DNA from: a virus
Strand: one strand, 5' to 3'
Virus record (IMG/VR): IMGVR_UViG_3300015360_000006
Coordinates: 1-52,003 of that record
Length of the DNA stretch: 52,003 bases
A program made the position numbers and the translations under genes. Shown piece after piece: positions 2,730-52,003 of the stretch. Below the pieces are notes generated by a model, which saw only the letters and a list, made by a program, of their open reading frames with translations, was not told where the DNA came from and searched no databases. Every line of letters starts with the position of its first letter. Position 1 is the stretch's first letter.

Positions 2730-4196
2730 ATGAATACAGCATTGACACAAAAATTAGGGCAGACGTTAGTCTTGTCGCCGCAACTTCAACAGTCGCTGGC
2801 GGTCCTTGCGGCACCCGTACTGGAGTTGCGCGCGTTAGTCTCGAAAGAGTTAGAAAGCAATCCACTGCTCGAGTCGGTCAGCGATGTCGAGGAATCTGTG
2901 GAGGCGCGCGAGACTCGCGAAGATATGGAGGCCGCCATGGCCGATCCGCACGAGCCGCCGTTGGATGTGCAGTACGACCCGGCGAAGGAACCTGCGGCCG
3001 AAGACTCTGACTTCGACAAGGAGTTGCGCAGCTTATTAGAACTTGACCGCGACCTGTACGATTCACAATCGCTAGGCTCACTGAACACTTCATCGGATGC
3101 CGACGAGGAGCGCAGGCAATTCATGCTTGACTCGGCCAAGGCACCGCACACTTTGCAAGAGGAACTTGAGCAGCAGGTTCAAGGTATGCTCAATCTGACA
3201 TACGACGCTCGAGACGAGGCAATGGTATTTACACAGAACATTGATGAGCGCGGGTACTTGAATGTCCCATCAGATTTGTTCACTGAACATTTCATCGTGA
3301 GCATGCAGATGGTGCTTGAACCGCCGGGCATTGGCGCACGTAGCTTGCGCGAATCATTGAGGATTCAAACGATGCGCCATGCAAATCCCAACACGTTAGC
3401 GCTGTCTATCTTGGATTGGCACTTTGAGTTATTAAGTAAGCGCAAGTTTAATACAATTGCGGAGATTCTTGGTCTGGATTATGACGAGGTGTGCGATGCG
3501 TGCGCGTGGATTGCCAAGTTAAATCCCTATCCGGCGGCGCAATTCTACAACGCTGACAGCTCAGTTGTGACGCCAGAGCTTGATGTCGTTGCCGTCGCTG
3601 GTGTCATGGAAGTTCACCAACGCTCGGATTACTTACCCAATCTGCGCATAAGCAGTGGCGTCGCGCGCTTGGTAACTCATGCGGCGACCGACGCGACGAC
3701 GCGTGACTACATTCGCGAGAAGATCAGAGCGGGTAAGTTCTTCATCCGTAGTATTCATCAGCGACAGAATACAATTCTCCGCGTGGCAACTGAAATTGTA
3801 CGGCGGCAACATAATTTCTTTGCAAGTGGCAACGTCCTTGAATTACTACCGCTGACCATGTCGCAAGTTGCCGATGCCGTCGGCGTGCACGAGACCACCG
3901 TGAGCCGTGCGGTTTCCGGTAAGTACATGAGCACACCGCATGGAGTTCTTGAGTTGCGTTACTTCTTCTCATGCGGTGTGGCGAACGCGAGCGGAGTCGA
4001 CACGTCGAATCGCTCAGTCAAGTTGATGCTGGTGGAGATCATCGCGGGCGAGGACAAGAAGAATCCTTACTCGGATGAAGCCTTGGTTGCAGTATTGAAC
4101 TCCCGCGGCATGTGCATCGCCCGGCGCACGGCGGCCAAGTATCGCGCAGAGCATAACATTCTGCCGCGTCACTTGCGTGTAATTCATGGCACGTAG
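2730..4196 (+). CDS. rpoN: RNA polymerase sigma-54 factor (RpoN), phage-encoded
   Basis: This 488-residue protein is a full-length sigma-54. Region I is at residues 1-50 (LSPQLQQSLAVL, ending LESNPLLE), followed by an acidic region II, then the core-binding region with NIDERGYLNVP and LEPPGIGARSLRESL, an HTH (about 375-400, VADAVGVHETTVSRAVSGKY), the GVLELRYFFS segment, and an RpoN box ARRTAAKYRA at about 464-473 (family consensus ARRTVAKYRE). Sigma-54 directs host core polymerase to -24/-12 promoters and needs an AAA+ activator to open them. A cognate activator gene lies in the same operon about 3.5 kb upstream across the circle junction. No domain is missing, so function is likely. An A-rich leader, not a Shine-Dalgarno, precedes the ATG. 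Confidence 0.97.
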   Translation: MNTALTQKLGQTLVLSPQLQQSLAVLAAPVLELRALVSKELESNPLLESVSDVEESVEARETREDMEAAMADPHEPPLDVQYDPAKEPAAEDSDFDKELRSLLELDRDLYDSQSLGSLNTSSDADEERRQFMLDSAKAPHTLQEELEQQVQGMLNLTYDARDEAMVFTQNIDERGYLNVPSDLFTEHFIVSMQMVLEPPGIGARSLRESLRIQTMRHANPNTLALSILDWHFELLSKRKFNTIAEILGLDYDEVCDACAWIAKLNPYPAAQFYNADSSVVTPELDVVAVAGVMEVHQRSDYLPNLRISSGVARLVTHAATDATTRDYIREKIRAGKFFIRSIHQRQNTILRVATEIVRRQHNFFASGNVLELLPLTMSQVADAVGVHETTVSRAVSGKYMSTPHGVLELRYFFSCGVANASGVDTSNRSVKLMLVEIIAGEDKKNPYSDEALVAVLNSRGMCIARRTAAKYRAEHNILPRHLRVIHGT

Positions 4197-4202
4197 GCAG
4201 CT
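4187..4202 (+). promoter_or_regulatory. Candidate sigma-54 promoter after rpoN, driving the SSB gene
   Basis: The element TGGCACGTAGGCAGCT has a perfect TGGCACG -24 box and GC exactly 10 bases after GG (consensus TGGCACG-N4-TTGCW). It overlaps the last codons of rpoN and points at the SSB-like gene, giving a predicted start near 4213 and a leader of about 280 nt. The -12 box reads CAGCT rather than TTGCA, as in two other candidates in this genome. Confidence 0.7.
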
Positions 4203-4491
4203 TACCTATTTTGCGAGCGGTCGGATGGGCCGTTAGCTCTGTATCTTGTGATACGGATAACAGTACATTACATAAATAGGGATCAGTAATGTACTGCCAA
4301 TTTTGCTGAGCCCTGAAAGCCAGCGACTAGTGAGCTATGATTTCGTAGGAGATCTACGAATGGGGTACGCCAGAACGGGAGTGGCGGAGGTTGCAAGGCC
4401 TTGTGTTTTCCTCCATGAAACACTCACTAGGTAATTTCCAAGCACGTTAAGTGACTGGAATTCAAAACAAAACAAAACAAAACAAAACAAA
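4203..4491 (+). other. Structured 5' leader upstream of the SSB-like gene
   Basis: This 290-nt gene-free stretch contains an 11-bp perfect stem (4261-4271 with 4286-4296, 14-nt loop), a 7-bp stem (4342-4348 with 4354-4360) and several shorter ones. It ends in the A-rich repeat that precedes the SSB start. It would be the 5' leader of a transcript from the candidate sigma-54 promoter at 4187. A sigma-70-like pair (TTGTGA, 17 bp, TACATA, around 4247-4275) is also present but weak. The leader may hold a regulatory RNA; no known riboswitch class was recognised. Confidence 0.5.
4464..4491 (+). repeat. (AAAAC)5 repeat directly before the SSB start codon
   Basis: Five AAAAC units followed by AAA run straight into the ATG at 4492, where a Shine-Dalgarno should be. 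Shorter AACAAA-type leaders precede many other genes here (for example 7202, 8182, 43878, 44756, 48663), so this probably acts as an unstructured A-rich translation enhancer. Confidence 0.75.
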
Positions 4492-4995: not shown

Positions 4996-5018
4996 GCCAG
5001 CAAGACACAGACAGTATG

Positions 5019-5056
5019 AGGCGCGAGCTCCACAAGGGCTCGCGCCTTTCTCTTTT
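5019..5056 (+). terminator. Intrinsic terminator after the SSB-like gene
   Basis: A perfect 9-bp GC-rich stem (GGCGCGAGC 5020-5028 with GCTCGCGCC 5038-5046) is followed by TTTCTCTTTT. It lies 25 nt after the SSB stop and just before the polymerase gene. An ATG at 5016 in frame with the polymerase gene falls in this hairpin and is unlikely to be its start. Confidence 0.85.
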
Positions 5057-5060
5057 CAAT

Positions 5061-6416
5061 ATGAATGTACATTATGTTTTAGGACATAGGTCGCGTTATG
5101 ATTTAGTTAACAAGGCATTCTCAGGACCTGCTCAAGTCTTTCTTGAAGACATATCGCTAGAGCTTAGCATTACGCACACTGTGTCTTGGTCCGACATGCC
5201 TATACCGCAGGTTAGTCATTGTGTTCTGGCCGGACCCAAAGCTTGGGCGCTGTGCGGATTCACTGAACGCGATGTGGGTGTGGTGATTGAGCGTGGCAAT
5301 GTAACTTACGTGTGCTCTTACCATCCGCAAGACGCCGTAGACGTGCGCAAGATTGACGAGTTGTTCACCGGGGTTGAAGACAGCGAACCCGACGAGGACG
5401 ATGCAGGTTCGGCCAAAGATGGCGCAACCACTCAGCGTATTAATTATCGCTTCTGGATACAGATCCACACTGAGAAACTGATTGCGCCCATACAGAAGCA
5501 TCGTCCGTTTAGCATGCGGATGGAGTCGTTGGTAAATTGTGGGTTTCCAAACTCAACGTATCTTTACCTAGACATTGAGACACACCCGCCTACCAATACA
5601 TTGCAGTGCATTACTGTAGGGTTTGACGAAGGCGCGGTGTTCTCCATTACGATCTACAATTACAAAGGAGAGTTGCAACCCGACGCACTGGACAGCATGG
5701 TCTGGCTGGTGCGAGCGCTCAAACGCTACACAGTTGTGATCCACAACGCCGCGTTCGACTTGCCATTCTTGGCAATGTTCCATGGCTTGGCGCACGGAGA
5801 TAAGATACACGATACCATGCTTATCTGGCATCGCATGTTTCCCGAGGCTGACAAGTCTTTGGCCCATGTGATTCAAGCGCTTACCAATCTACCTTATCAC
5901 AAGGATGAGGCTGGCACATTCTGTCCTCACAACCACAAGCAGCAGCAGACTTTGCTGGTGTACAATGCGCGTGATGTGTACGCATTGCGCGAGGTTCACA
6001 AGATGATGTTGCCCTTGAGTGCCAGCGCCCAATCAGTTTGCGATAGCATCCCTGATTATCTTTTCACTGGCTTGCTCGGGTTCTACATCAATGATCGCAG
6101 GTTGGCGCATCATCGGAAGCGCTTGTCTGTCGCCGCCCAGCAGCTTGAACGCATCATGCGCTTGCTAGTTGGTGTCAGTGATTTCAATCCTAACTCCGGC
6201 AAGCAGGTACAGATTTGGTTGTACGACAAACTCAAATACAAACCTCCTACGCTTACCGACAGCGGCGCGCCGGCGACGGATGCTACTACGTTGTACAAGT
6301 TACTGATCACACATCCTAAGAATGTGGCTTTGCAAGTGCTGCTTGAGATCAAGGAAAATTCCAAGCGACTATCGTCCATCAATTATAAACCATACACTCA
6401 ACTCAACGAGCGATGA
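5061..6416 (+). CDS. Family A DNA polymerase, N-terminal half: 3'-5' exonuclease plus thumb
   Basis: This 451-residue protein carries a DnaQ-like proofreading domain: Exo I LYLDIETH near residue 171, Exo II VIHNAAFDLPFL near 228 and Exo III YNARDVYAL near 301. After it, FNPNSGKQVQIWLYDKL near residue 375 matches the start of the family A polymerase domain, and the protein stops just after SKRLSSINY, the usual KLxSTY position. The palm and fingers are encoded separately at 11066-12052. The start at 5061 is chosen because the upstream in-frame ATG lies in a terminator stem. Residues 1-160 are unlike known domains. Its TGA overlaps the ligase ATG. Confidence 0.9.
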   Translation: MNVHYVLGHRSRYDLVNKAFSGPAQVFLEDISLELSITHTVSWSDMPIPQVSHCVLAGPKAWALCGFTERDVGVVIERGNVTYVCSYHPQDAVDVRKIDELFTGVEDSEPDEDDAGSAKDGATTQRINYRFWIQIHTEKLIAPIQKHRPFSMRMESLVNCGFPNSTYLYLDIETHPPTNTLQCITVGFDEGAVFSITIYNYKGELQPDALDSMVWLVRALKRYTVVIHNAAFDLPFLAMFHGLAHGDKIHDTMLIWHRMFPEADKSLAHVIQALTNLPYHKDEAGTFCPHNHKQQQTLLVYNARDVYALREVHKMMLPLSASAQSVCDSIPDYLFTGLLGFYINDRRLAHHRKRLSVAAQQLERIMRLLVGVSDFNPNSGKQVQIWLYDKLKYKPPTLTDSGAPATDATTLYKLLITHPKNVALQVLLEIKENSKRLSSINYKPYTQLNER

Positions 6417-7183
6417 AACAAACACGCAATGCAGCCATTGCTGCGTCTATCTCGCGGCCGTGCGAGGTCTTCGCCGAGCCTGTCACTTCCGGTTGGGAGT
6501 GCCGCCCCAAACTTAACGGTGTCTTCGCACGCTGGGATTCGGCGTCGCAGACACTGTACTCTAAGCGTGGGATTGCATTCAAGCAGCACCTGATTCCGCT
6601 TATCTATGCCGCACTGGAGAAAACGCGCCTCGATCTAGATGGTGAGATCTGGGCTGACGATATTCCGTTGCAAGTTATTTGCGGCATGTTGAACCATGAG
6701 CGCGACGAGATGGCGCCCGATGCGCTCAAGTTAAACTACGTTGCCTTCGACGCACCCGACAAGAGTAGGATGATTCCCTACAAGTTTCGGTACAGTCAGG
6801 TGAGGGAGTCGGGCGTGTACAATTTAGATGATCTAGACAATGTCACGACAGGCAACACCGACGGTTACATCTACCGTTTCTTGAATGGTGTCTACATACC
6901 CGGCGTCAATGGCAACATCAGGAAGCTGAAATCGTGGCGCGACATGGAAGTGGATGTCATTGGCGCGGAGCTTGCGGATCCTAATTCCCTGATGCACGGT
7001 ATGCTGGGCGGATTGTTGTGCCGCATGGAGAACGGTGTTAAGTTCTCTGTAGGTTCAGGCTTCAATATCCCGGAGCGACAGGAGTTCATCAAGGATTACC
7101 CTATGCGCATCAAGGTTAAATATCTTTCACTATCAACCGCAGGTGTTCCTTTGAATCCTGTGTACATCGGTCTCGACTTGTGA
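6413..7183 (+). CDS. ATP-dependent DNA ligase
   Basis: This 256-residue protein shows the nucleotidyltransferase motifs of ATP-dependent ligases in order: motif I KLNGVFARW (Lys as the adenylated residue, consensus KxDGxR with Asn for Asp), motif III LDGEIW, motif IIIa LNYVAFDA, motif IV TDGYIYR and motif V RKLKSW. The C-terminal 90 residues would form a short OB domain. It seals nicks during phage replication and repair. It overlaps the polymerase half by ATGA, so the two are translationally coupled. The Asn in motif I and Thr in motif IV are variants to note. Confidence 0.87.
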   Translation: MKQTRNAAIAASISRPCEVFAEPVTSGWECRPKLNGVFARWDSASQTLYSKRGIAFKQHLIPLIYAALEKTRLDLDGEIWADDIPLQVICGMLNHERDEMAPDALKLNYVAFDAPDKSRMIPYKFRYSQVRESGVYNLDDLDNVTTGNTDGYIYRFLNGVYIPGVNGNIRKLKSWRDMEVDVIGAELADPNSLMHGMLGGLLCRMENGVKFSVGSGFNIPERQEFIKDYPMRIKVKYLSLSTAGVPLNPVYIGLDL

Positions 7184-8171: not shown

Positions 8172-8181
8172 CAAACAAATT

Positions 8182-8895
8182 ATGAACGTAAGACTTATCT
8201 CGGTAACGCAACCTTGCCCGTCGGACACAGGGCCAAAGACGGCGGAAGAACTTATCGTGCACATTGCGCGAGTGTCTAATCCGGCCAACCAAAACAACTT
8301 TGAAACCTCGGCGCGCCTGCTTGGTTACTGCATTCGCAAAGGCCATTGGTCAATCTTCGAGTCAGTCTCAATGACTGTCGAGATTGAAACCTCACGCGCC
8401 ATCGGTACGCAAATCTTGCGGCACCGTAGCTTCACGTTCCAAGAGTTCAGCCAAAGGTACAGCAGTAGTGATAAGCTGTGGGAAGGCTACTATGGCAAGA
8501 CCAATGATGACTTCTTCGAAAAGGTTCAGTTGCGTGAGAAGGGCTCAACCAACAGGCAAGGTAGCCTTGACAGGCAGCACGCCGACGCCATGGAACTTAA
8601 CGCTAAAGTTCGCGAACAACTGGCTAGTTGCTTTAGCTTGTACGCATCCCTTTTGCGAGATGGTGTTGCGCTAGAGTGCGCTCGAATGGTGCTGCCTTTG
8701 TGCACCTCTACTCGCATTTACATGACAGGCTCAGTGAGATCGTGGATCCACTATCTTGCACAGCGTCTGGCCGAAGGTACGCAGCTGGAACATCGCGAAG
8801 TGGCAACGCGAGTTGCCTCCATTTTCAAGGCTCAGTTTCCGCTGGTGGGCGAAGCTTGCCGCACTGAAGTCATCCCGGCGCACACTACGTTGTAA
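8182..8895 (+). CDS. thyX: Flavin-dependent thymidylate synthase ThyX
   Basis: This 237-residue protein contains the ThyX signature in the form RHRSFTFQEFSQRY (consensus RHRxxSxNExSxR), preceded by HWSIFESVSMTVEIE and followed by CARMVLPLCTSTRIYMTGSVRSW, both typical of the family. ThyX methylates dUMP to dTMP using FAD, NADPH and methylenetetrahydrofolate, supplying thymidine for phage DNA. Length is normal. It is followed after one base by the macrodomain gene, a neighbour that also concerns thymidine in DNA if the DarG relationship holds. Confidence 0.95.
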   Translation: MNVRLISVTQPCPSDTGPKTAEELIVHIARVSNPANQNNFETSARLLGYCIRKGHWSIFESVSMTVEIETSRAIGTQILRHRSFTFQEFSQRYSSSDKLWEGYYGKTNDDFFEKVQLREKGSTNRQGSLDRQHADAMELNAKVREQLASCFSLYASLLRDGVALECARMVLPLCTSTRIYMTGSVRSWIHYLAQRLAEGTQLEHREVATRVASIFKAQFPLVGEACRTEVIPAHTTL

Positions 8896-10891: not shown

Positions 10892-11066
10892 GCAAATGAG
10901 TTTGTTCGGAGGAGATGACAATCTACCTCCGGGTGTAACGCAGAAGGATCTGGACAACCACGGCGACGGGAAGGTTACCTGCACAGGTTGTCTTCGCTCG
11001 CGCTATCAGCACGATATGTTCGACGGACTGTGCCGCTGGTGTATCCCAATGTCAGAAAGGGACTAA
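10884..11066 (+). CDS. 60-residue zinc-ribbon protein
   Basis: This small protein starts with MNEQMSLFGGDDNLPPG and has two Cys pairs, CTGC near residue 34 and CRWC near residue 51, typical of a treble-clef or zinc ribbon. An N-terminal SLFGG-type motif resembles sliding-clamp-binding peptides, though none is proven. It overlaps the MazG gene at its start, and its TAA overlaps the ATG of the polymerase C-half (TAATG), linking it to polymerase expression. Confidence 0.72.
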   Translation: MNEQMSLFGGDDNLPPGVTQKDLDNHGDGKVTCTGCLRSRYQHDMFDGLCRWCIPMSERD

Positions 11067-12052
11067 TGCACACTAATAGATTAAGGGCCATCACATGTTA
11101 CAAGCAAGCTGGCACACGCAGCTTCCGCCTCAGCGCGACGCAGTACTTCAATACCTACGGACTTAATCTACAAAATCCGGACAAAGAAACTCTGGATCAT
11201 CTGGAAGCCCCGGCCGGCCACGTCATAGTGCAAGCAGATCAAAGCGGCGCCGAAGCTTTGATTGTAGCTTATGACTCCGCGCCGGGGCGTTATCGTGCTC
11301 TGTTTGAAAACGGAGTCAAGCCGCACACTTACCTAGCGATGCAAATCTTTGCATCCTATTTTGGTCTGGCCGCCGACTCTCCGTTCTTGAACGAAGAAGT
11401 GGCAGAGTTTACTAAGCTGCCAAACTGGGCCGAGTTGCACAAGCGCATCAAAAAGTCGGGCAAGCCTTACGACATTGGCAAGCGGACGGCACACGGATCT
11501 TCTTACAAGATGGGTCCAATCACATTCCGTAATGCAAACATAAAGCAATCAAAGGGCAAGCTTGTATTGTCCATTGCAGAATGTCGTGCATTTCTGGATA
11601 TGTTCAAGCGTTTGTTTCCGGAAGTAGTTGCTTGGCAGGACAGTGTTGAAACTACACTTAGACGCGAGCGAAAGCTTGTCAACCACTTCGGCTACACAAG
11701 ATTGTTTACACGCGAGCTTACTGATTCTTATGTTCGCGAGGCAATCTCTTGGCGCCCGCAGTCCACGGTGGGTTGCATAACCCATCAAGCCATTCGTCGC
11801 GCACGCGTAGCGGGATATGCCACGTGCTCCAACAAGCATGATTCGGCCGCCGTAATGGTAACTTGCGAAGATGCAAGCACGGCAGCTGCTTTCATGCAGA
11901 ACGCTATGAGGGTAAAACTTCAAGGCCACGATTGCGAATTCACCATGAACTCAGAAGTACAGATTGGCTCGAATTGGGGAGCATACGATGCTGACACCAA
12001 TCCAACTGGTATGAGGGACTCTAATGAGTGGATCAAGGCATCCAATGAGTAA
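11066..12052 (+). CDS. Family A DNA polymerase, C-terminal half: palm and fingers
   Basis: This 328-residue protein contains the catalytic core of a family A polymerase: the template-contact segment ending GLNLQN (near residue 35), motif A VQADQSGAEALIVAY (near 55), motif B KRTAHGSSYKMG (about 138-150) and motif C KHDSAAV (near 257). Motif C has Ser where most enzymes have Glu. The protein starts where a family A polymerase would continue after the KLxSTY element that ends the 5061-6416 gene, so the two together make one normal polymerase. The start is set by the TAATG overlap with the preceding gene. It overlaps the next gene by ATGAGTAA. Confidence 0.9.
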   Translation: MHTNRLRAITCYKQAGTRSFRLSATQYFNTYGLNLQNPDKETLDHLEAPAGHVIVQADQSGAEALIVAYDSAPGRYRALFENGVKPHTYLAMQIFASYFGLAADSPFLNEEVAEFTKLPNWAELHKRIKKSGKPYDIGKRTAHGSSYKMGPITFRNANIKQSKGKLVLSIAECRAFLDMFKRLFPEVVAWQDSVETTLRRERKLVNHFGYTRLFTRELTDSYVREAISWRPQSTVGCITHQAIRRARVAGYATCSNKHDSAAVMVTCEDASTAAAFMQNAMRVKLQGHDCEFTMNSEVQIGSNWGAYDADTNPTGMRDSNEWIKASNE

Positions 12053-34217: not shown

Positions 34218-35510
34218 TTACCAGCTGAGCGCGGAGTTCGGATCGCGGCGATAGATGATAGGAATCACGTTGTAAGGGTTCGCAGGCATAACGCCGTGAA
34301 CGGTGGAAGCGATCAACTTGATCAGCTCGTCCCACGTGTTGGCTTCCACATTGCCAGCGGAATCCTTGATCAGGAAATTCCGCGTAGCCTGAACCTGACC
34401 ATTCCAGTTCAACGCATTGAATTTGTTTGCCGTGGAGCCTTGGCCGGTGAAGCTGGCAGGAGGAGGTCCAACGTCAATGGTCTGAATCGGATTCCAACCA
34501 ATCAGGTAAGCAACACTGACAGGAGCCTTGCGGTACGCTTCAGTGAAACGGGTGATGTAACCCTTATCACCGGAGTAGTTCGCGGCATTGTACTCCTGCT
34601 CGACCTGAATGTCAGGCATCGTACCATCTTCGTTGTAACGCTCGGGGTACGGCGTAGAGCGGAAGACGATGTTATCCGAGATGGCTCCAGAGAATCGGCT
34701 GTTGAGCAGATTCATCGCAAGGGGCCGAACGGCATTGACCGTCGGATCGTAGGTCAGGCGAGTGAGCAACTCATTGTCGCCCGCGAGAATCCACTTACCT
34801 TTGACCAACTCATTGTCGCCTGGGTTGCCCTTCTTCCAGCCGTCGCTGGGCGCAATACCCAGACTGTTCTGGGCAAGATCACGAATCGCACAGATGGTGC
34901 GAAAGTCCAGCGTACCCGTGCCGAGCTCCTGGATCTTGGCTGCCATCCAGTTAGTATCCTTGACACTGGCGGTGGGATCGCTGGGATCACCAAACGGCAC
35001 AGACTCATCATATGCCGAATCGGCGGAACCGCCGCGGCCCACGATGTAGACGTGGCGAGCAAGATTGAACAACTGATCGCGAATGAAGAAGTCGTTGCAG
35101 ATGGCAATCTGCGTAGCGAGATCCTTCATCTGGAACATGATGTTCTTGCGGAAGTCCCGGAAATCAGGCAGCCAGTGAATCTGCTGAGACATGTACTTGT
35201 GCCGCTTGACACGCGCCTGATTCTGCAGCTCACGATTGCGGTACGTGTTGATCTTCGCAACCTCAGTGATGTTGTTGGGGCGATGGGTCTGCGAAGTGAC
35301 AGGCGAGGACTGGGGCATCACACCGATGATGATGTCGCCATTGTTCTGCTTGAACTTGAGGGAGGAGAACATAGTCCCCCAGGTGGAGACATACTCGTAG
35401 GTGCTCTTCTCCTGATAAGCCATCTGAACAGGAAGCCGAGCAAACGCTGCGGTGTCCTGAACAGAATAGTTGACGTCCGTTGGAGGCGTGAGTCCGATCG
35501 TAGTAGGCAT
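34218..35510 (-). CDS. Major capsid protein
   Basis: This 430-residue protein sits where the major capsid protein is expected, after portal and scaffold. It has the length and composition of podoviral HK97-fold capsids, with an N-arm PTTIGLTPPTDVNYSVQDTA and a conserved DGTMPDIQVEQEYNAANYSG stretch. Codon use is biased to C/G third positions as in highly expressed genes. It has a long structured leader and a candidate sigma-54 promoter (35656-35671). Assignment is by gene order, size and codon use, not a single motif. Confidence 0.85.
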   Translation of the reverse strand: MPTTIGLTPPTDVNYSVQDTAAFARLPVQMAYQEKSTYEYVSTWGTMFSSLKFKQNNGDIIIGVMPQSSPVTSQTHRPNNITEVAKINTYRNRELQNQARVKRHKYMSQQIHWLPDFRDFRKNIMFQMKDLATQIAICNDFFIRDQLFNLARHVYIVGRGGSADSAYDESVPFGDPSDPTASVKDTNWMAAKIQELGTGTLDFRTICAIRDLAQNSLGIAPSDGWKKGNPGDNELVKGKWILAGDNELLTRLTYDPTVNAVRPLAMNLLNSRFSGAISDNIVFRSTPYPERYNEDGTMPDIQVEQEYNAANYSGDKGYITRFTEAYRKAPVSVAYLIGWNPIQTIDVGPPPASFTGQGSTANKFNALNWNGQVQATRNFLIKDSAGNVEANTWDELIKLIASTVHGVMPANPYNVIPIIYRRDPNSALSW

Positions 35511-35655
35511 ATTAGTTGAAACTTATCGGTGGAAATAAAAAAAAAACCACCGATGGATTAATTACGGGAACTTTTGAGGTTCACCGCAATATCACCATAG
35601 GTGGCTATTGCTGGTCTGCGAGAGACTCGCAGAATACTTACTCTAGGACTATTTT
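35511..35655 (-). other. Structured 5' leader of the capsid gene
   Basis: Three stem-loops lie between the candidate promoter and the capsid ATG: a 7-bp stem (35616-35622 with 35626-35632, 3-nt loop), a compound stem (35586-35591 with 35606-35611, and CACC/GGTG inside), and an 8-bp stem (35525-35532 with 35547-35554) whose 14-nt loop is almost all A on the plus strand, T on the minus. Such leaders often stabilise highly expressed capsid mRNA. Confidence 0.6.
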
Positions 35656-35671
35656 TGCTGGAAGTATGCCA
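35656..35671 (-). promoter_or_regulatory. Candidate sigma-54 promoter of the capsid gene
   Basis: Read on the minus strand: TGGCATACTTCCAGCA. TGGCA and the GG-N10-GC spacing match the -24/-12 consensus; the -12 box is CAGCA. It overlaps the end of the scaffold gene, and the predicted start near 35645 leaves a leader of about 135 nt before the capsid ATG. Confidence 0.6.
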
Positions 35672-35672
35672 A

Positions 35673-38854: not shown

Positions 38855-39033
38855 TAGTCTTCCTCTGTTTCGAACGGAATCATCTCATATCCGGGTGCTT
38901 TGGTTTCCGTAGTTTCGTCATCGGAAACTTCTCGCTCGTCGTCGATGGCGATTAAATCCGTGACGATTTCGTTTACTTCTTTCAGCTCTTCGGTGTTGAG
39001 ACCTTCAAGCATGGACTTAAGTTCAGCAATCAT
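38854..39033 (-). CDS. Small acidic protein between terminase and portal
   Basis: This 59-residue protein starts MIAELKSMLEGLNTEEL and is strongly acidic, mostly helical. It overlaps the terminase stop (39030) and shares a TAATG with the portal start, so it is clearly part of the translated chain even though it is short. It may be a packaging or head-completion factor; no family recognised. Confidence 0.72.
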   Translation of the reverse strand: MIAELKSMLEGLNTEELKEVNEIVTDLIAIDDEREVSDDETTETKAPGYEMIPFETEED

Positions 39034-40856
39034 TTGTAAATCAGGTTGTAAAATCCACTAACGATTAGTTTGCGCTCGACCATCGGATCAAAGTGTTCGG
39101 GCTCTTTGTAATTATCGAAAGCTCGATTCTCGTAATCTTGCACGAAGTGCGCCATACGTTCCTCCTTTGAGCCTTCGCTTACATTGTTTTCGGCGAGCAT
39201 TTCGGAAAGATCGTAGATAGAGTAAGCCAGAACGTAAGCGTCGGCGCAGTCTGGTGAAAATCCTAGGCGACCTTTCGCCTTCTTTTTGTCTTCCAGTTGA
39301 AGCTTCTGCTTCTCATTGGTGAAGAACTTACGCGTGGTAATTTGCTTCTTCCAGCGATCGTAGCATTCAAACTTGTGTGGCGGAATAATTTTACCCAGCT
39401 CAATCATTCGGCCAACTCGGAAGTACATCTCAGCGCCTATGTTCGCGTAATTCTCAGTGTTGAAAGCCGCCGATTGGTTGTTAACTCCGCGTATAGGATA
39501 GCCAGCTTCTTGCACGCGCCGCAAAATTGGCGCACCGATTCCGCCCATATCACCTGAGACATCTTCGTACTCGCACTTGAAATTTGACTTGCCGATCAAG
39601 AGTTGCTTGACAATCCAAGCGTGCAACTTGTTAGGAGAAGATGTAGTAATGACTGCGTGGTACAAGGGCTCATTGCCATGAACAATCCAGAACTCGGATA
39701 GATCAACGCCCAATCCAACGTCGAGCCCACCGGCCGGGCGCTGTCCCATTGTTTTCGCCGGCGGCGGAATGTAATCCAATCTCTCACCCGGAATGATGAC
39801 CTCTTCTGCGGATTCGTAGAACTCCGCCAAAATGCCTGTGCGATAGGGCGCAGAGTTCTCGCCGTGGTTCAGCCTAGTTTGCTCGATCGCCGCGGGCGAA
39901 ATGTTGGGACACTCAAACGCAGTGACACGGCGCGAGAAAGGAGTGCCCAGTTCGCACTTGGTAAACGAAGAACGCTCTACAGACTTGTAGAACTGACCGC
40001 ACCGCGCGCCGGGAGAAGATACCTGCAACCAATGAGAGTAACCATAGAAGCGCGAGAAAGCTTCGTACAGCGTATCTTTAATAGACTTAGCTTCACCGAT
40101 TACCACCATCATCTTCGATTCAGGGACTTCATAGAATGGGTGATAGCCTTCAACCTTTGATGGCTCGTCCGTACAGAATGCCCGCAATTCACTGCCCGTG
40201 TAATTGCACTTGATTGAGAATTCTTTTATGTCAAATACATCATCCTCGTGCAACGCATTGATTGTTTCGCACAGAGTTGAGATAGGCTTGAAGGTGTGCT
40301 CCTTAAGCTGGATATGCGACTCCGACGTGATGACTACGCGCGAACGCAGGTAGCGCATCATGAACCAAACTACTGTCGGCGTAATGATGTAAGTATCCTT
40401 ACCCGAAGAGTTGGCCGCCACCAGATTGTAAATGAATGGATTCTCTTTCGTCGGATCCTGCCACTCGCTGCGCGGCAGGCCTTCCAAATTCAAATCACCG
40501 CCCATGCGATGCTGTTCCTCTTGCTGCCATTCGTAGGGCTTAAGATGTGGATTGTAAGTTTTGAACAACACCAAAGGTGTCGGAAAGTCAAAGGTCTTAG
40601 GATTCGCGGGCCATGAGAATTTAGAGGACCGCGACGGCGCCGGGCGGTCCGCCCCCTCGGGTTCCCTGTCTTCCGGCGCGGCAGCGCCGGCCCGCGTCTT
40701 AAGCCCTGGAGAAGCGGGTACAGATTTGGGAAACTCGGCACCAAAGCCAGTGTCCACGCCATCGAACGCCGGATCGATTGCCGCCGAAGCGTGGGTAGAT
40801 TCCAGCGCCGCGCGCACCCGCAAAGCATTGAGCTGCTCTTCAGTAAGTTTAGGCAT
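39030..40856 (-). CDS. terL: Terminase large subunit
   Basis: This 608-residue protein has an ATPase domain with Walker A-like AANSSGKD near residue 146, a YVVITSES-like strand (SRVVITSESHIQLKE) and a VIGEAKS stretch, followed by a nuclease domain starting GLDVGLGVDLSEFWIVHG near residue 375 and ending FSPDCADAYVLA, both typical of TerL nucleases. The first 90 residues are Ala/Pro-rich. TerL cuts and pumps concatemeric DNA into proheads. It overlaps the small terminase by 8 bp. Confidence 0.93.
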   Translation of the reverse strand: MPKLTEEQLNALRVRAALESTHASAAIDPAFDGVDTGFGAEFPKSVPASPGLKTRAGAAAPEDREPEGADRPAPSRSSKFSWPANPKTFDFPTPLVLFKTYNPHLKPYEWQQEEQHRMGGDLNLEGLPRSEWQDPTKENPFIYNLVAANSSGKDTYIITPTVVWFMMRYLRSRVVITSESHIQLKEHTFKPISTLCETINALHEDDVFDIKEFSIKCNYTGSELRAFCTDEPSKVEGYHPFYEVPESKMMVVIGEAKSIKDTLYEAFSRFYGYSHWLQVSSPGARCGQFYKSVERSSFTKCELGTPFSRRVTAFECPNISPAAIEQTRLNHGENSAPYRTGILAEFYESAEEVIIPGERLDYIPPPAKTMGQRPAGGLDVGLGVDLSEFWIVHGNEPLYHAVITTSSPNKLHAWIVKQLLIGKSNFKCEYEDVSGDMGGIGAPILRRVQEAGYPIRGVNNQSAAFNTENYANIGAEMYFRVGRMIELGKIIPPHKFECYDRWKKQITTRKFFTNEKQKLQLEDKKKAKGRLGFSPDCADAYVLAYSIYDLSEMLAENNVSEGSKEERMAHFVQDYENRAFDNYKEPEHFDPMVERKLIVSGFYNLIYK

Positions 40857-41235
40857 CGGTCGAAGGAGTTACATTCAGTGCAAGCTTGTGGCGAATGATT
40901 TTGGGCACCGCATTTTGCGCACATTCCAGCGCCGCAATTAATTGCAAAGACGCCAGCGCATTGATTTCGCGCGTCCGCGCCCGCGCATCATTGCGACCTT
41001 TTACTTCGTCCACCAACCACGTAAGGGCACTCATGCGCGTTTTGACCGCATTCTCTTTCCCAAAAGCGATGTGCTTCATTTCGAGAAGAATGGCCGGCAA
41101 GTCTTCAACGCCCGGCACGCCCAGCATCACGCGCACAGATTGCACTGATAAGTCTAAACCCGCCGCAATGTCCTCCGCCGAAAGAGAAGGGTCGCTCCGA
41201 GATAGTGCCAGAACTTGATCGTAGCCTGATGACAT
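40849..41235 (-). CDS. terS: Terminase small subunit
   Basis: From the ATG at 41235 this is a 128-residue protein beginning MSSGYDQVLALS with a helix-turn-helix LSAEDIAAGLDLSVQSVRVML near residues 17-38, then an Arg-rich helix. Such proteins recognise the packaging site. A longer start at 41277 is possible, but then the sigma-54-like promoter would fall inside the coding part; the predicted start site (about 41236) lies next to the ATG at 41235, suggesting a leaderless mRNA. Overlaps terL by 8 bp. Confidence 0.8.
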   Translation of the reverse strand: MSSGYDQVLALSRSDPSLSAEDIAAGLDLSVQSVRVMLGVPGVEDLPAILLEMKHIAFGKENAVKTRMSALTWLVDEVKGRNDARARTREINALASLQLIAALECAQNAVPKIIRHKLALNVTPSTDA

Positions 41236-41246
41236 GATTCGTTGGT

Positions 41247-41262
41247 TGCAGAGAGTGTGCCT
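41247..41262 (-). promoter_or_regulatory. Candidate sigma-54 promoter of the terminase (late) operon
   Basis: Read on the minus strand: AGGCACACTCTCTGCA. GGCAC and TGCA match the -24/-12 consensus with exact GG-N10-GC spacing. The predicted start is about 41236, next to the terS ATG. It would drive the whole leftward late arm. Candidate activator sites lie about 140-180 bp upstream. Confidence 0.7.
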
Positions 41263-41377
41263 TTGGATGGTTGTCAATTAGTTTATAGAGTTTCTAAAAT
41301 TTCAAAAATTTAAAAATTTAAGAGAATGTCTAGTTGTATTTCGCACTTCGTTTCTGGGGCTCCGTCATCACAAGCCT

Positions 41378-41468: not shown

Positions 41469-41715
41469 AGGGACTTAACGACTTAGGTTATATAGAATTG
41501 AATTATATATAGGTATAAGTGTGTTTATATATAAGTATAGGTATGTTATATTTATATAGGTATGTTTATATAAGTAAATAAATATATATATATAGGCATA
41601 TTAGTATACATTAATATATCAATTGGAAACGACATATAGATTAAAAAATACTTATATAATTCAACCTATATCCAAACTTTGAACCTATACCCTAGAATCT
41701 TCGACCAAGCGGCAA

Positions 41716-41752
41716 ACCAAGGGAAAAAATCTTTTCCCCTTAAACCCTTGGT
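41716..41752 (+). promoter_or_regulatory. Overlapping, mutually exclusive hairpins before the first rightward gene
   Basis: GGGAAAA (41721-41727) can pair with TTTTCCC (41732-41738), or ACCAAGGG (41716-41723) can pair with CCCTTGGT (41745-41752). Both cannot fold at once, an arrangement typical of attenuators. Whether the RNA starts upstream of this is unknown. Confidence 0.45.
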
Positions 41753-47150: not shown

Positions 47151-47176
47151 TAGAGTAGTCTGCTCCCATACAGGCT

Positions 47177-47192
47177 TGGCACGCACATAGCT
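47177..47192 (+). promoter_or_regulatory. Candidate sigma-54 promoter of the gene at 47266
   Basis: TGGCACGCACATAGCT has a perfect TGGCACG -24 box and GC exactly 10 bases after GG; the -12 box is TAGCT. Predicted start about 47203, giving a 63-nt leader that holds the 12-bp palindrome TTCAAGCTTGAA and an ACAAC/GTTGT stem. Confidence 0.75.
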
Positions 47193-48972: not shown

Positions 48973-51117
48973 ATGCCCATCACGTTAACGAAGAAGGCAC
49001 TGGGCCTACAAGAAATGGAGAAGACACGGATTGCAAATAGCACCCGTGCAACCGCACTAGCTCAGTGCACTAGCGCCAAGGGGCGCATTGCTCTGGGAAA
49101 GGTTAAGGATTGGGCCGGACTTAGCGTCCAACTCAACTACGAAATCTCAGCGGGACTAACCTCCCTGCCATGGGAGCGTGAGAACTGGGAGATGTGCCTC
49201 GACTGGTTCGTGTCTAGCGCCGTCGCGCGCAGCACGGCGCTGTTCGACAGCAAGGCCATCGAGTCGGCCGCAGTTCTCGAAACTGTGGTGAAGAACAATG
49301 TCGCCTTTGCTAAAGTTCAACTGCGCCCGCAGCAGAAGAAAGCGCTGGACCAAATCATCGCAGCATACGAGGCCGGCAAGCGGGCCGTGCTGGTGGCAAT
49401 GGGCACTGGCCGCGGCAAGACTGTGGTCTTCGGCGCGTTCATCGAGTGGCTCAAGCGGCGCGGCACGGTCGACGGGGATAACTTCCTCTTGCCCAAGGCG
49501 TGCATCTTTACCAAGAAGCCTGCCGTCTGGTCGACGCGGTGGAAGATTGAAAACTTCTTCGACCTACATTGCACGGGTGACGTGCAAGATAAGATGGACG
49601 CAGAGGTTGGCGTGTTCCATTACAATGCACTCTCCGCCAAGAAGCACGCGTCCAAGTGGAAGCGTGATCCGAAGACTGGCGAGCTACTGCTTAACTCAGT
49701 AGAGATGTTCGGGAATGCATTCACATTCCCTGTGTCGGCACTCGTCGAGCCACTGAATCTTGTGGTGTTCGACGAATGTCACATGCTCAAGAAGCGCAGT
49801 GCCAAATGCACCAAGCGTGCGCGCGGCATCATGGCTAGCATAGCTGCCAAGAAGTGCTTCTATATTTTCACGTCTGCCACGCCGGCCGTGTGTCTGAATG
49901 ACACGATGCTGTTCAACATCGCTGCCGAATTGGCAACCGATGAGAACATGGCTACGTTTCTTGGCCGCTTCGGTGGCGATTCAAGTCAGGCAGATCCTAT
50001 TGCAATGCGCAAGTACAATGATTACTTGGGCATCCATATGGTCAAGCCGCCCGAAGACAAGCTGCCTTATAAGGTTACCAATCGCGTAGACTTGGTAGAC
50101 TTTCCATGCGCTGCCACCAAGGAGAAGTACATGGCGGCGGAGGCGGATTACATCCGTGCGGTTGAATCCTCTGGCGGCGTGGCTGGCGACACGTCTATGT
50201 CGCAGTTCATTATCTACCGACGATGCGCGGAGGTCTTGATGGCGCCTGTCTACGCAGACTACATGTGCCGCGCACGTGCTCGAGGCATCGCGCCCGTACT
50301 CGCCGTGTGCTTCATCGACACGGTCACTTCGGTGAGCGCCATCCTTGCGAAGCGTGGATGGAAACGCGAAGAGCTGTCCTATATCTGGGGCGGCGAGAAG
50401 ATCATCGAGCAGTCGGAGTGCTACACTACTGCCGAGATGGCTAAGATTCTTAGCCGTGCCGACGAGGAGATCCTCAAGTATACGGAGGCATTCGGTGAGC
50501 CTCCCGAAGATGACTACTTCTTCCTGACCCGCAAGGAGAAAGCGAAGTTCACGCGCACTAGGGCATACAACAAGGCTCGCTTGCGGCGCGGCGAGACTAA
50601 GCTTGAGCAGATCGAGCGCACGGAGATGCTCAAGGACTACAAGCTTGACAAGCAGACTGACCTCGAGCGTGAGGTGGAACTCGACAAGTTCCTTAAAGAT
50701 GTAACACTGGGTTGCATCTTCACGTTCGCCAGCGGTGGCACTGGCATCGATCTGGACAATCAGATCAAGGGTGGCCGGCCGCGCGAGTTGATCGCCACTG
50801 TCTGCTACTGGGCAGAGGAGTTCTTGCAGGCGTTCGGGCGGTGCGCCCGTGTCATGACGCAGTCAGATGTGTCGCACATCATCCTCATGTTCAAGGATAC
50901 ACTGCCTGTGCAGCATGTCCTTCCGCGATTGCTGCCCAAGTTGCGCAGCATCAAGATTCTTACGGGCATCGAGGGAGATCTCGAAGATGTTATGGCTACC
51001 GGGATTCGCAAGGGCCACAAGGCTGAGATCATCAAGGAATCCAAGGAGGTAGTGCAAGATGGTATCATCACCGACGAGGACGACGGCGATGACGACGATG
51101 ACGAAGACGAGAAATAA
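48973..51117 (+). CDS. SF2 DEAH-type helicase
   Basis: This 714-residue protein has the SF2 helicase motifs in order: motif I MGTGRGKT near residue 143, motif II VVFDECHM near 267, motif III FTSATP near 301, and motif V-VI ASGGTGIDLDN and QAFGRCARV near residues 585-625. Homologues unwind DNA or restructure branched intermediates in phage replication and recombination. The N-terminal 110 residues are a separate domain and the C-terminus is a long acidic tail (DDGDDDDDEDEK). It is directly followed by the sigma-54 activator gene. Confidence 0.92.
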   Translation: MPITLTKKALGLQEMEKTRIANSTRATALAQCTSAKGRIALGKVKDWAGLSVQLNYEISAGLTSLPWERENWEMCLDWFVSSAVARSTALFDSKAIESAAVLETVVKNNVAFAKVQLRPQQKKALDQIIAAYEAGKRAVLVAMGTGRGKTVVFGAFIEWLKRRGTVDGDNFLLPKACIFTKKPAVWSTRWKIENFFDLHCTGDVQDKMDAEVGVFHYNALSAKKHASKWKRDPKTGELLLNSVEMFGNAFTFPVSALVEPLNLVVFDECHMLKKRSAKCTKRARGIMASIAAKKCFYIFTSATPAVCLNDTMLFNIAAELATDENMATFLGRFGGDSSQADPIAMRKYNDYLGIHMVKPPEDKLPYKVTNRVDLVDFPCAATKEKYMAAEADYIRAVESSGGVAGDTSMSQFIIYRRCAEVLMAPVYADYMCRARARGIAPVLAVCFIDTVTSVSAILAKRGWKREELSYIWGGEKIIEQSECYTTAEMAKILSRADEEILKYTEAFGEPPEDDYFFLTRKEKAKFTRTRAYNKARLRRGETKLEQIERTEMLKDYKLDKQTDLEREVELDKFLKDVTLGCIFTFASGGTGIDLDNQIKGGRPRELIATVCYWAEEFLQAFGRCARVMTQSDVSHIILMFKDTLPVQHVLPRLLPKLRSIKILTGIEGDLEDVMATGIRKGHKAEIIKESKEVVQDGIITDEDDGDDDDDEDEK

Positions 51118-51126
51118 ACATATCAT

Positions 51127-51975
51127 ATGCCCGTAACAATTAAGACTGGACACAAGCTGCCCTATGCAGTAGCAAGCGAGGCGTTCAAGACACGAGCGCG
51201 CATGACACGGGACGGCAGACTCGTTGAAAACAGTTACATCACGGACGATCCGTTCACGCTCAGCCAGCTTAGCTTGATTGATCAGGTGCGTGATCTCAAC
51301 ATGTCGGTCCTGATAACAGGTGAGTCGGGCACCGGCAAAGATATTATGGCCAAGCGACTCGGCCATCGGCACACGCTGGATGCTAGCGGGTTGCACACTA
51401 TGGCCAAGTACATCTCCGTCAACTGCGCAGGCATCACGGATTCACTGTTCGAGTCCGAGATGTTTGGCCACATCAAGGGATCATTCACCGGTGCACTGCG
51501 CGATCGCGCTGGATTCTTTCAAGCGGCGCACGGCGGCACGTTATTCCTTGACGAGATCGGCGATCTGCCTTTGCACCAGCAAGCTAAGTTGCTGCGTGTG
51601 CTAGAGAACAAAACGGTTACGCCAGTCGGCAGCACCGAGGAGATTCATGTGTCGCCTCGCATTGTGTGTGCTACCAACAAGAACTTAAGGCAAGCTATTA
51701 TTGCCGGAGAGTTTCGAGAGGACCTCTATTACCGCATCGCACAAGTTGTGGTATCAACCATCCCGTTACGCATGAGGTCGACGGATGTTGTGCTCATTGC
51801 CAACGAGATCATTGCGACGAATGACTGGACGCCGTTGGCTTCCAACGAGACCATTCCTACATGGGCCTACTCGCGCGGCAATGTTCGCCGCTTGTACGCT
51901 TGCATTCAACTTCGCGAACTCGGCCTTCAATGGGATGAGATCGCCGAACAATGGGACTGGAGTGCTAATGCCTAA
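51127..51975 (+). CDS. Minimal sigma-54 activator (bEBP AAA+ ATPase), phage-encoded
   Basis: This 282-residue protein is essentially just the AAA+ domain of a sigma-54 activator. It has Walker A GESGTGKD at residues 65-72, the sigma-54-contacting loop as GSFTGA at 118-123 (usual GAFTGA), Walker B LFLDEIGD near 139-146, sensor I ATNKNL near 183, the arginine-finger segment FREDLYYR near 198 and sensor II RGNVRRL near 250. There is no N-terminal regulatory domain and almost no C-terminal domain, so no HTH: activation would be constitutive and may not need an enhancer, or a partner supplies DNA binding. The cognate RpoN is in the same operon. The last 95 bases are repeated at the window start. 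Confidence 0.93.
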   Translation: MPVTIKTGHKLPYAVASEAFKTRARMTRDGRLVENSYITDDPFTLSQLSLIDQVRDLNMSVLITGESGTGKDIMAKRLGHRHTLDASGLHTMAKYISVNCAGITDSLFESEMFGHIKGSFTGALRDRAGFFQAAHGGTLFLDEIGDLPLHQQAKLLRVLENKTVTPVGSTEEIHVSPRIVCATNKNLRQAIIAGEFREDLYYRIAQVVVSTIPLRMRSTDVVLIANEIIATNDWTPLASNETIPTWAYSRGNVRRLYACIQLRELGLQWDEIAEQWDWSANA

Positions 51976-52003
51976 GACCATTCACAAGGCTGCAATGGCA
52001 GCA
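51881..52003. repeat. Terminal direct repeat, second copy
   Basis: Identical to bases 1-123. It contains the end of the sigma-54 activator gene and the first 36 bases of the following gene (start at 51968, equivalent to 88). See the first copy. Confidence 0.95.

Follow-up and report, generated by a model that had tools for sequence, protein, structure and literature searches.

Phages redirect host polymerase by sigma-70-class factors, anti-sigma proteins, or polymerases of their own. A gene at positions 2730 to 4196 (plus strand) of the viral record IMGVR_UViG_3300015360_000006 from IMG/VR (analyzed over its whole 52,003 nucleotides, here called the window) raises the question of whether a phage can also own a sigma-54 (RpoN) and what it would use it for. 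The reading frame is uninterrupted, and its 488-amino-acid product is, near certainly, the complete sigma-54 that a preliminary description had claimed. All three Pfam domains are found, in the order AID (region I; PF00309, residues 5 to 48, 4.5e-13), CBD (PF04963, residues 136 to 309, 4e-32), and DBD (PF04552, residues 326 to 479, 9.4e-51). The product scores 322 bits with NCBIfam TIGR02395 (rpoN_sigma; cut-off, 277) and matches solved sigma-54 chains in the PDB at 3e-55. Its predicted structure (mean pLDDT, 75) has sigma-54 within RNA polymerase complexes as the top Foldseek match (1.8e-28), with the extra-long helix (residues 322 to 359) and the HTH both modeled. The motifs quoted earlier (LSPQLQQSL, LESNPLLE, GYLNVP, PPGIGARSL, and ARRTAAKYRA) are all present. 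Likewise, comparison with bacterial RpoN revealed no loss of region I or the RpoN box, and S392 R393 and ARRT..KYR are invariant in all 32 sigma-54 sequences aligned. Homology to sigma-70 regions 2 and 4 is absent from the product, the matching families being sigma-54 only.

A dN/dS of 0.21 to 0.27 among the window and its close relatives indicates purifying selection on the phage sigma-54. Compared with the nearest cellular RpoN (L025), the CBD is about 9 residues shorter, the loss lying before the PPGIGAR motif, and residues 154 to 188 vary fast. Amino acid changes among three close variants are concentrated in this same stretch (positions 3189 to 3293, at the start of the CBD), in a pattern as if produced by diversifying selection or recombination. 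Right after the gene lies a 295-bp gap (4197 to 4491) with AAAAC repeats at its end, in which no sense-strand gene was called and an Rfam search gave no match.

The sigma-54 gene might be bacterial DNA that was misassembled into a phage contig or packaged by accident, the more so as many rpoN-bearing database records labeled as phage, three of which were checked, appear to be host DNA. For the window, we consider this practically negligible. Perfect copies of a 123-bp direct repeat form its ends (1 to 123 and 51881 to 52003). As a virus record with such a repeat, the window most likely represents the complete genome, roughly 51.9 kb long and either circularly closed or terminally redundant, of an unclassified phage. 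Two contigs from other samples (L001 and L002) encode the sigma-54 at 95% amino acid identity with the gene order of the window, and its gene neighborhood was found in three contigs from other samples. The contig L004 bridges the end-to-start junction, running from the activator gene discussed below into the first part of the sigma-54 gene. Misassembly, which the preliminary description had named as a concern, can be rejected, because independent contigs keep the gene and its neighbors and L004 spans the junction. No bacterial housekeeping genes were recognized around the sigma-54 gene, and 22 viral contigs carry a sigma-54 of this kind. The viral content of the window itself comprises, besides the repeat, a terminase large subunit and replication genes, both found as had been described; the portal and capsid genes described alongside them gave no family match and are assigned by position.

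Some further features of these genomes may be recorded here. The ThyX gene stretch (8176 to 8893) is a cassette recently gained or lost, being missing from the near-identical L001 and L002; ThyX is present in L005. The Sak4-like gene that directly precedes sigma-54 has some 130 additional bp at its 3' end in L001 (505 to 636) and in the terminal part of L004; the added sequence consists of near-repeats of the final segment of this gene. Two separate ORFs encode DNA polymerase A (its parts and DNA ligase are covered by 5016 to 6416, 6413 to 7183, and 10988 to 12052), with the ligase gene and, in the window, further genes between the parts. The arrangement N-part, ligase, C-part is also found in L006, G019, and G021; for G071 and G052, the C-part match is contained in a single long ORF of about 800 amino acids. 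A very AT-rich, TATATA-rich region between two divergent gene arms (41480 to 41740) is a possible origin or early promoter region.

The window also encodes a sigma-54 activator (bEBP) that consists of the AAA+ core alone (51127 to 51975, plus strand; 282 amino acids). It matches PF00158 at 3.3e-58 and shows Walker A (GESGTGK), a GAFTGA-type loop that reads GSFTGA, Walker B (FLDEIGD), FREDLYYR, and sensor II (GNVRRL), its nearest PDB neighbors being FleQ/NtrC-type AAA+ domains. A receiver or GAF domain N-terminal of the core is absent, as is a C-terminal DNA-binding (Fis-type) domain, the protein stopping about 30 residues past sensor II; the activators of the window, L020, and L006 had no HTH family matches. 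We regard this protein as activator-like in its mechanism and, with respect to membership, as a DBD-less variant, since the DNA-binding domain is also naturally absent from some known activators. Its dN/dS between the window and L004 is 0.04. The helicase gene directly 5' of it (48973 to 51117, plus strand) stays close to the activator gene in L005, L020, G019, and G021. Both the window activator (8e-40) and that of L020 match phrog_7998, a PHROG phage family of unknown function, for which sigma-54 activation can now be proposed as a function.

How widespread are the two genes? The preliminary description had proposed a search for viral homologues, and a profile search of IMG/VR, using a profile that included Verrucomicrobiota sequences, yielded 22 contigs with this kind of sigma-54. 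The activator is co-present in 20 of these; the remaining two are fragmentary contigs from the species of the window, for which the activator is found on the window and L004. Conversely, sigma-54 occurs in only 1 of 42 other activator contigs, and those that lack it include contigs complete by terminal repeats (L006, G034, G038, G039, and G063). Genes for terminase, a portal-like protein, a putative capsid protein, polymerase, primase, helicase, and the activator are common to the window and the relatives examined, a shared set that argues for one deep phage family. Four further IMG/VR matches (L021, L022, L023, and L024), none of which carries the activator gene, were set aside; L021 and L022 cluster with bacterial RpoN. 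No PHROG matched the phage sigma-54 at the threshold used. Among named phages, the rpoN records MT840004, CAKLQF020000038, and PQ159901 were checked and not accepted as phage sigma-54: they are labeled phage and look like bacterial chromosome, with 5S rRNA, lptB, or flagellar-type neighbors. OR846593, a record without annotation, also has an rpoN match. Such mislabeled records would mislead searches for phage sigma-54. Within the open-access literature, we found neither a report of a phage sigma-54 nor a description of a sigma-54 route for switching on late phage genes.

The best cellular match of the window's sigma-54 is the chromosomal verrucomicrobial RpoN of L025, at 49% identity, and in trees both phage sigma-54 groups fall in or beside Verrucomicrobiota RpoN, with the reservation that outgroups were few and the position of the second lineage was unstable. 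At least two phage lineages thus carry a Verrucomicrobiota-type sigma-54. Both are long-branched, which implies that the acquisition was not recent in either. In the window, the gene follows the Sak4-like gene, and in the second lineage it precedes the helicase gene, a difference that fits separate gains or a move; a single origin of all phage sigma-54s has an AU p of 0.19. Taken together with the terminase large subunit (39030 to 40856, minus strand), whose nearest named relatives are those of Akkermansia phages, the RpoN affinity points to, without proving, a verrucomicrobial host, so that a host phylum can be suggested for phages without a cultured relative.

If sigma-54 and activator serve the phage itself, its genome might be expected to carry -24/-12 promoters. 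We scored sites with a weight matrix for canonical sigma-54, the frequencies of which approximate the published consensus; this consensus is given as TGGCAC-N5-7-TTGCT (PMC12316311). In the window alone, scores were not above chance (10 sites of at least 11 bits versus 10.4 expected), and its three candidate sites either deviate from the consensus at -12 or have no T preceding GG. The activator-only virus L006 has five sites of at least 16 bits versus 0.23 expected, all five intergenic and gene-facing. In a stronger, matrix-free test, we compared [CT]TGGCA plus GC[AT] at GG-N10-GC with twelve other spacings. Across 12 activator-phage contigs, the count was 56 versus 11 to 21 at the other spacings, an approximately fourfold enrichment, and that of intergenic, gene-facing sites was 30 (20 different sequences) versus 0 to 3; these sites are not all independent, as the contig sets include close relatives. 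Seven further contigs replicated this (39 versus 2 to 16, and 18 versus 0 to 2 for intergenic, gene-facing sites). Four control phages without the system gave 11 sites at GG-N10-GC, one of them intergenic and gene-facing. The -12 element varies among sites from the consensus TTGC to AGC. We considered the AGC form as a mark of sigma-54-owning phages and discarded it, as G034 and G038, which lack sigma-54, also have it. For 16 Verrucomicrobiota genomes, the counts were 43 versus 31 in the control for the canonical -12 form and 60 versus 99 for the AGC form.

The sites are also conserved in position. In a placement search with somewhat more relaxed criteria than those of the spacing test (GGCA could be preceded by any base or by AA or TA), the putative capsid gene had an upstream -24/-12 site in all 15 phages, mostly at 145 to 161 bp (range, 106 to 249) and with many different sequences, versus none of 15 terminase genes and 1 of 16 activator genes (Fisher p 3e-11, in a calculation that ignores relatedness). 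In the window, this putative late promoter, TTGGCATACTTCCAGCA (35656 to 35672, minus strand), lies 145 bp upstream of the candidate for the major capsid protein (34218 to 35510, minus strand; 430 amino acids). The candidate is assigned by position and conservation only; a profile search gave no match, none of 50,697 named phage records matched it, and its fold prediction has a pLDDT of 31. Between the promoter and this gene, an inverted repeat with a T run (35527 to 35560, minus strand; ATCGGTGG, a T-rich loop, and CCACCGAT) is possibly a leader structure.

A second putative late promoter, AAGGCACACTCTCTGCA (41247 to 41263, minus strand), precedes the gene ahead of the terminase, which from its position is a probable small terminase subunit (40849 to 41235, minus strand). 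The distance to the ATG is exactly 11 bp in both the window and L005, and in L007 the site is unchanged within a gap full of indels. The TTGGCGAG repeats before the late operon were considered as a conserved element and dropped, as they are not kept in L007. A third putative -24/-12 promoter, TTGGCACGCACATAGCT (47176 to 47192, plus strand), lies in the gap preceding gene 47266. It is identical in L004 and has the counterpart TTGGCACGCTCCCAGCT in L005, and the same-strand gene run downstream of it contains the activator and sigma-54 genes. In the window itself, the placement search found no site immediately before the sigma-54 gene. In the second lineage, a -24/-12 site 19 to 45 bp upstream of the sigma-54 gene suggests that this sigma-54 may be autoregulated.

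These positions also bear on what the two proteins act upon. A DBD-less activator could, like truncated bEBPs, act on any closed sigma-54 complex, the host's included, and the source of the sigma-54 is the likely host phylum. Possibly, then, the pair mainly reprograms host sigma-54 genes, for example those for nitrogen or the envelope, to feed the infection, phage promoters being a minor target. However, the strong, spacing-specific enrichment of -24/-12 sites in phage genomes and, in all 15 family members searched, their conserved position before the putative capsid gene of the phage make this quite improbable.

Since complete relatives without sigma-54 retain the activator and promoters, the activator-driven late switch looks family-wide. 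The same observation, together with the different places of sigma-54 in the two owning lineages, lends some credit to another explanation, namely, that the activator works with host sigma-54, the phage copy only supplementing the dosage or being a dispensable acquisition. Indeed, host sigma-54 could serve the same phage promoters. Yet the phage sigma-54 is under purifying selection, it persists throughout the diverse second lineage, where a -24/-12 site of its own lies upstream, and the long branches of both lineages speak against a recent gain, so that we regard dispensability or mere dosage as rather unlikely.

We consider it very probable that the phage owns a self-contained sigma-54 transcription switch in which the activator gates -24/-12 late promoters. 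The distinct transcription strategy proposed in the preliminary description is favored by the activator and by the conservation of the promoters in relatives. From the components, their co-occurrence, and the statistics and positions of the promoters, we infer how transcription would proceed, in which host, and why sigma-54 is carried. Rightward genes would be started from host sigma-70-type promoters, and activator and sigma-54 would build up at low levels. The phage sigma-54 would join the host core polymerase and wait in closed complexes on the phage -24/-12 promoters, until hexamers of the activator open them with ATP, presumably acting from solution, as they have no DNA-binding domain. 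Late genes would be turned on via the putative small terminase and capsid promoters, with feedback onto the gene run that includes the genes for these two proteins, activator and sigma-54. Owning sigma-54 would free the switch from the host supply; relatives with activator and promoters and without this gene presumably use host sigma-54, the window lineage and the second lineage having taken their own from Verrucomicrobiota. More broadly, we lean toward a large family of tailed phages, as yet unclassified, that express late genes via ATP-dependent sigma-54 promoters, some members having freed themselves from the host regulon through possession of both sigma-54 and activator, possibly with altered promoter preference. 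A widespread family of uncultured phages would then offer a late switch that can be put to the test.

Among known systems, the phage sigma-54 belongs with the Verrucomicrobiota branch of bacterial RpoN, with which it shares the three Pfam domains, the HTH, the RpoN box, and the overall fold; the HTH, HETTVSRAVSGKY, is even identical to that of L025. It differs in being phage-borne, at most 49% identical, shortened in the CBD, and diverged in region II, and the second-lineage protein has just about 430 amino acids. The activator resembles bEBPs of the NtrC/PspF/FleQ group in its AAA+ core, Walker A and B motifs, GAFTGA-type loop, arginine finger, and sensor II but lacks both a regulatory and a DNA-binding domain. 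Natural DBD-less activators are FlgR of Helicobacter and CtcC of Chlamydia, and truncated PspF is also known. The phage pair would thus offer a natural minimal sigma-54 system of sigma factor plus bare ATPase core. With the sigma-70-class phage sigmas, such as T4 gp55 and SPO1 gp28, it has in common that a phage protein redirects the host core polymerase; sporulation-like sigmas found in phages are also of the sigma-70 class (PMC9429907). In contrast to these, sigma-54 is of an unrelated family and requires -24/-12 promoters and ATP hydrolysis by an activator. If our reading is true, the control logic would differ as well, with polymerase pre-loaded on silent promoters until an ATP-driven machine opens them.
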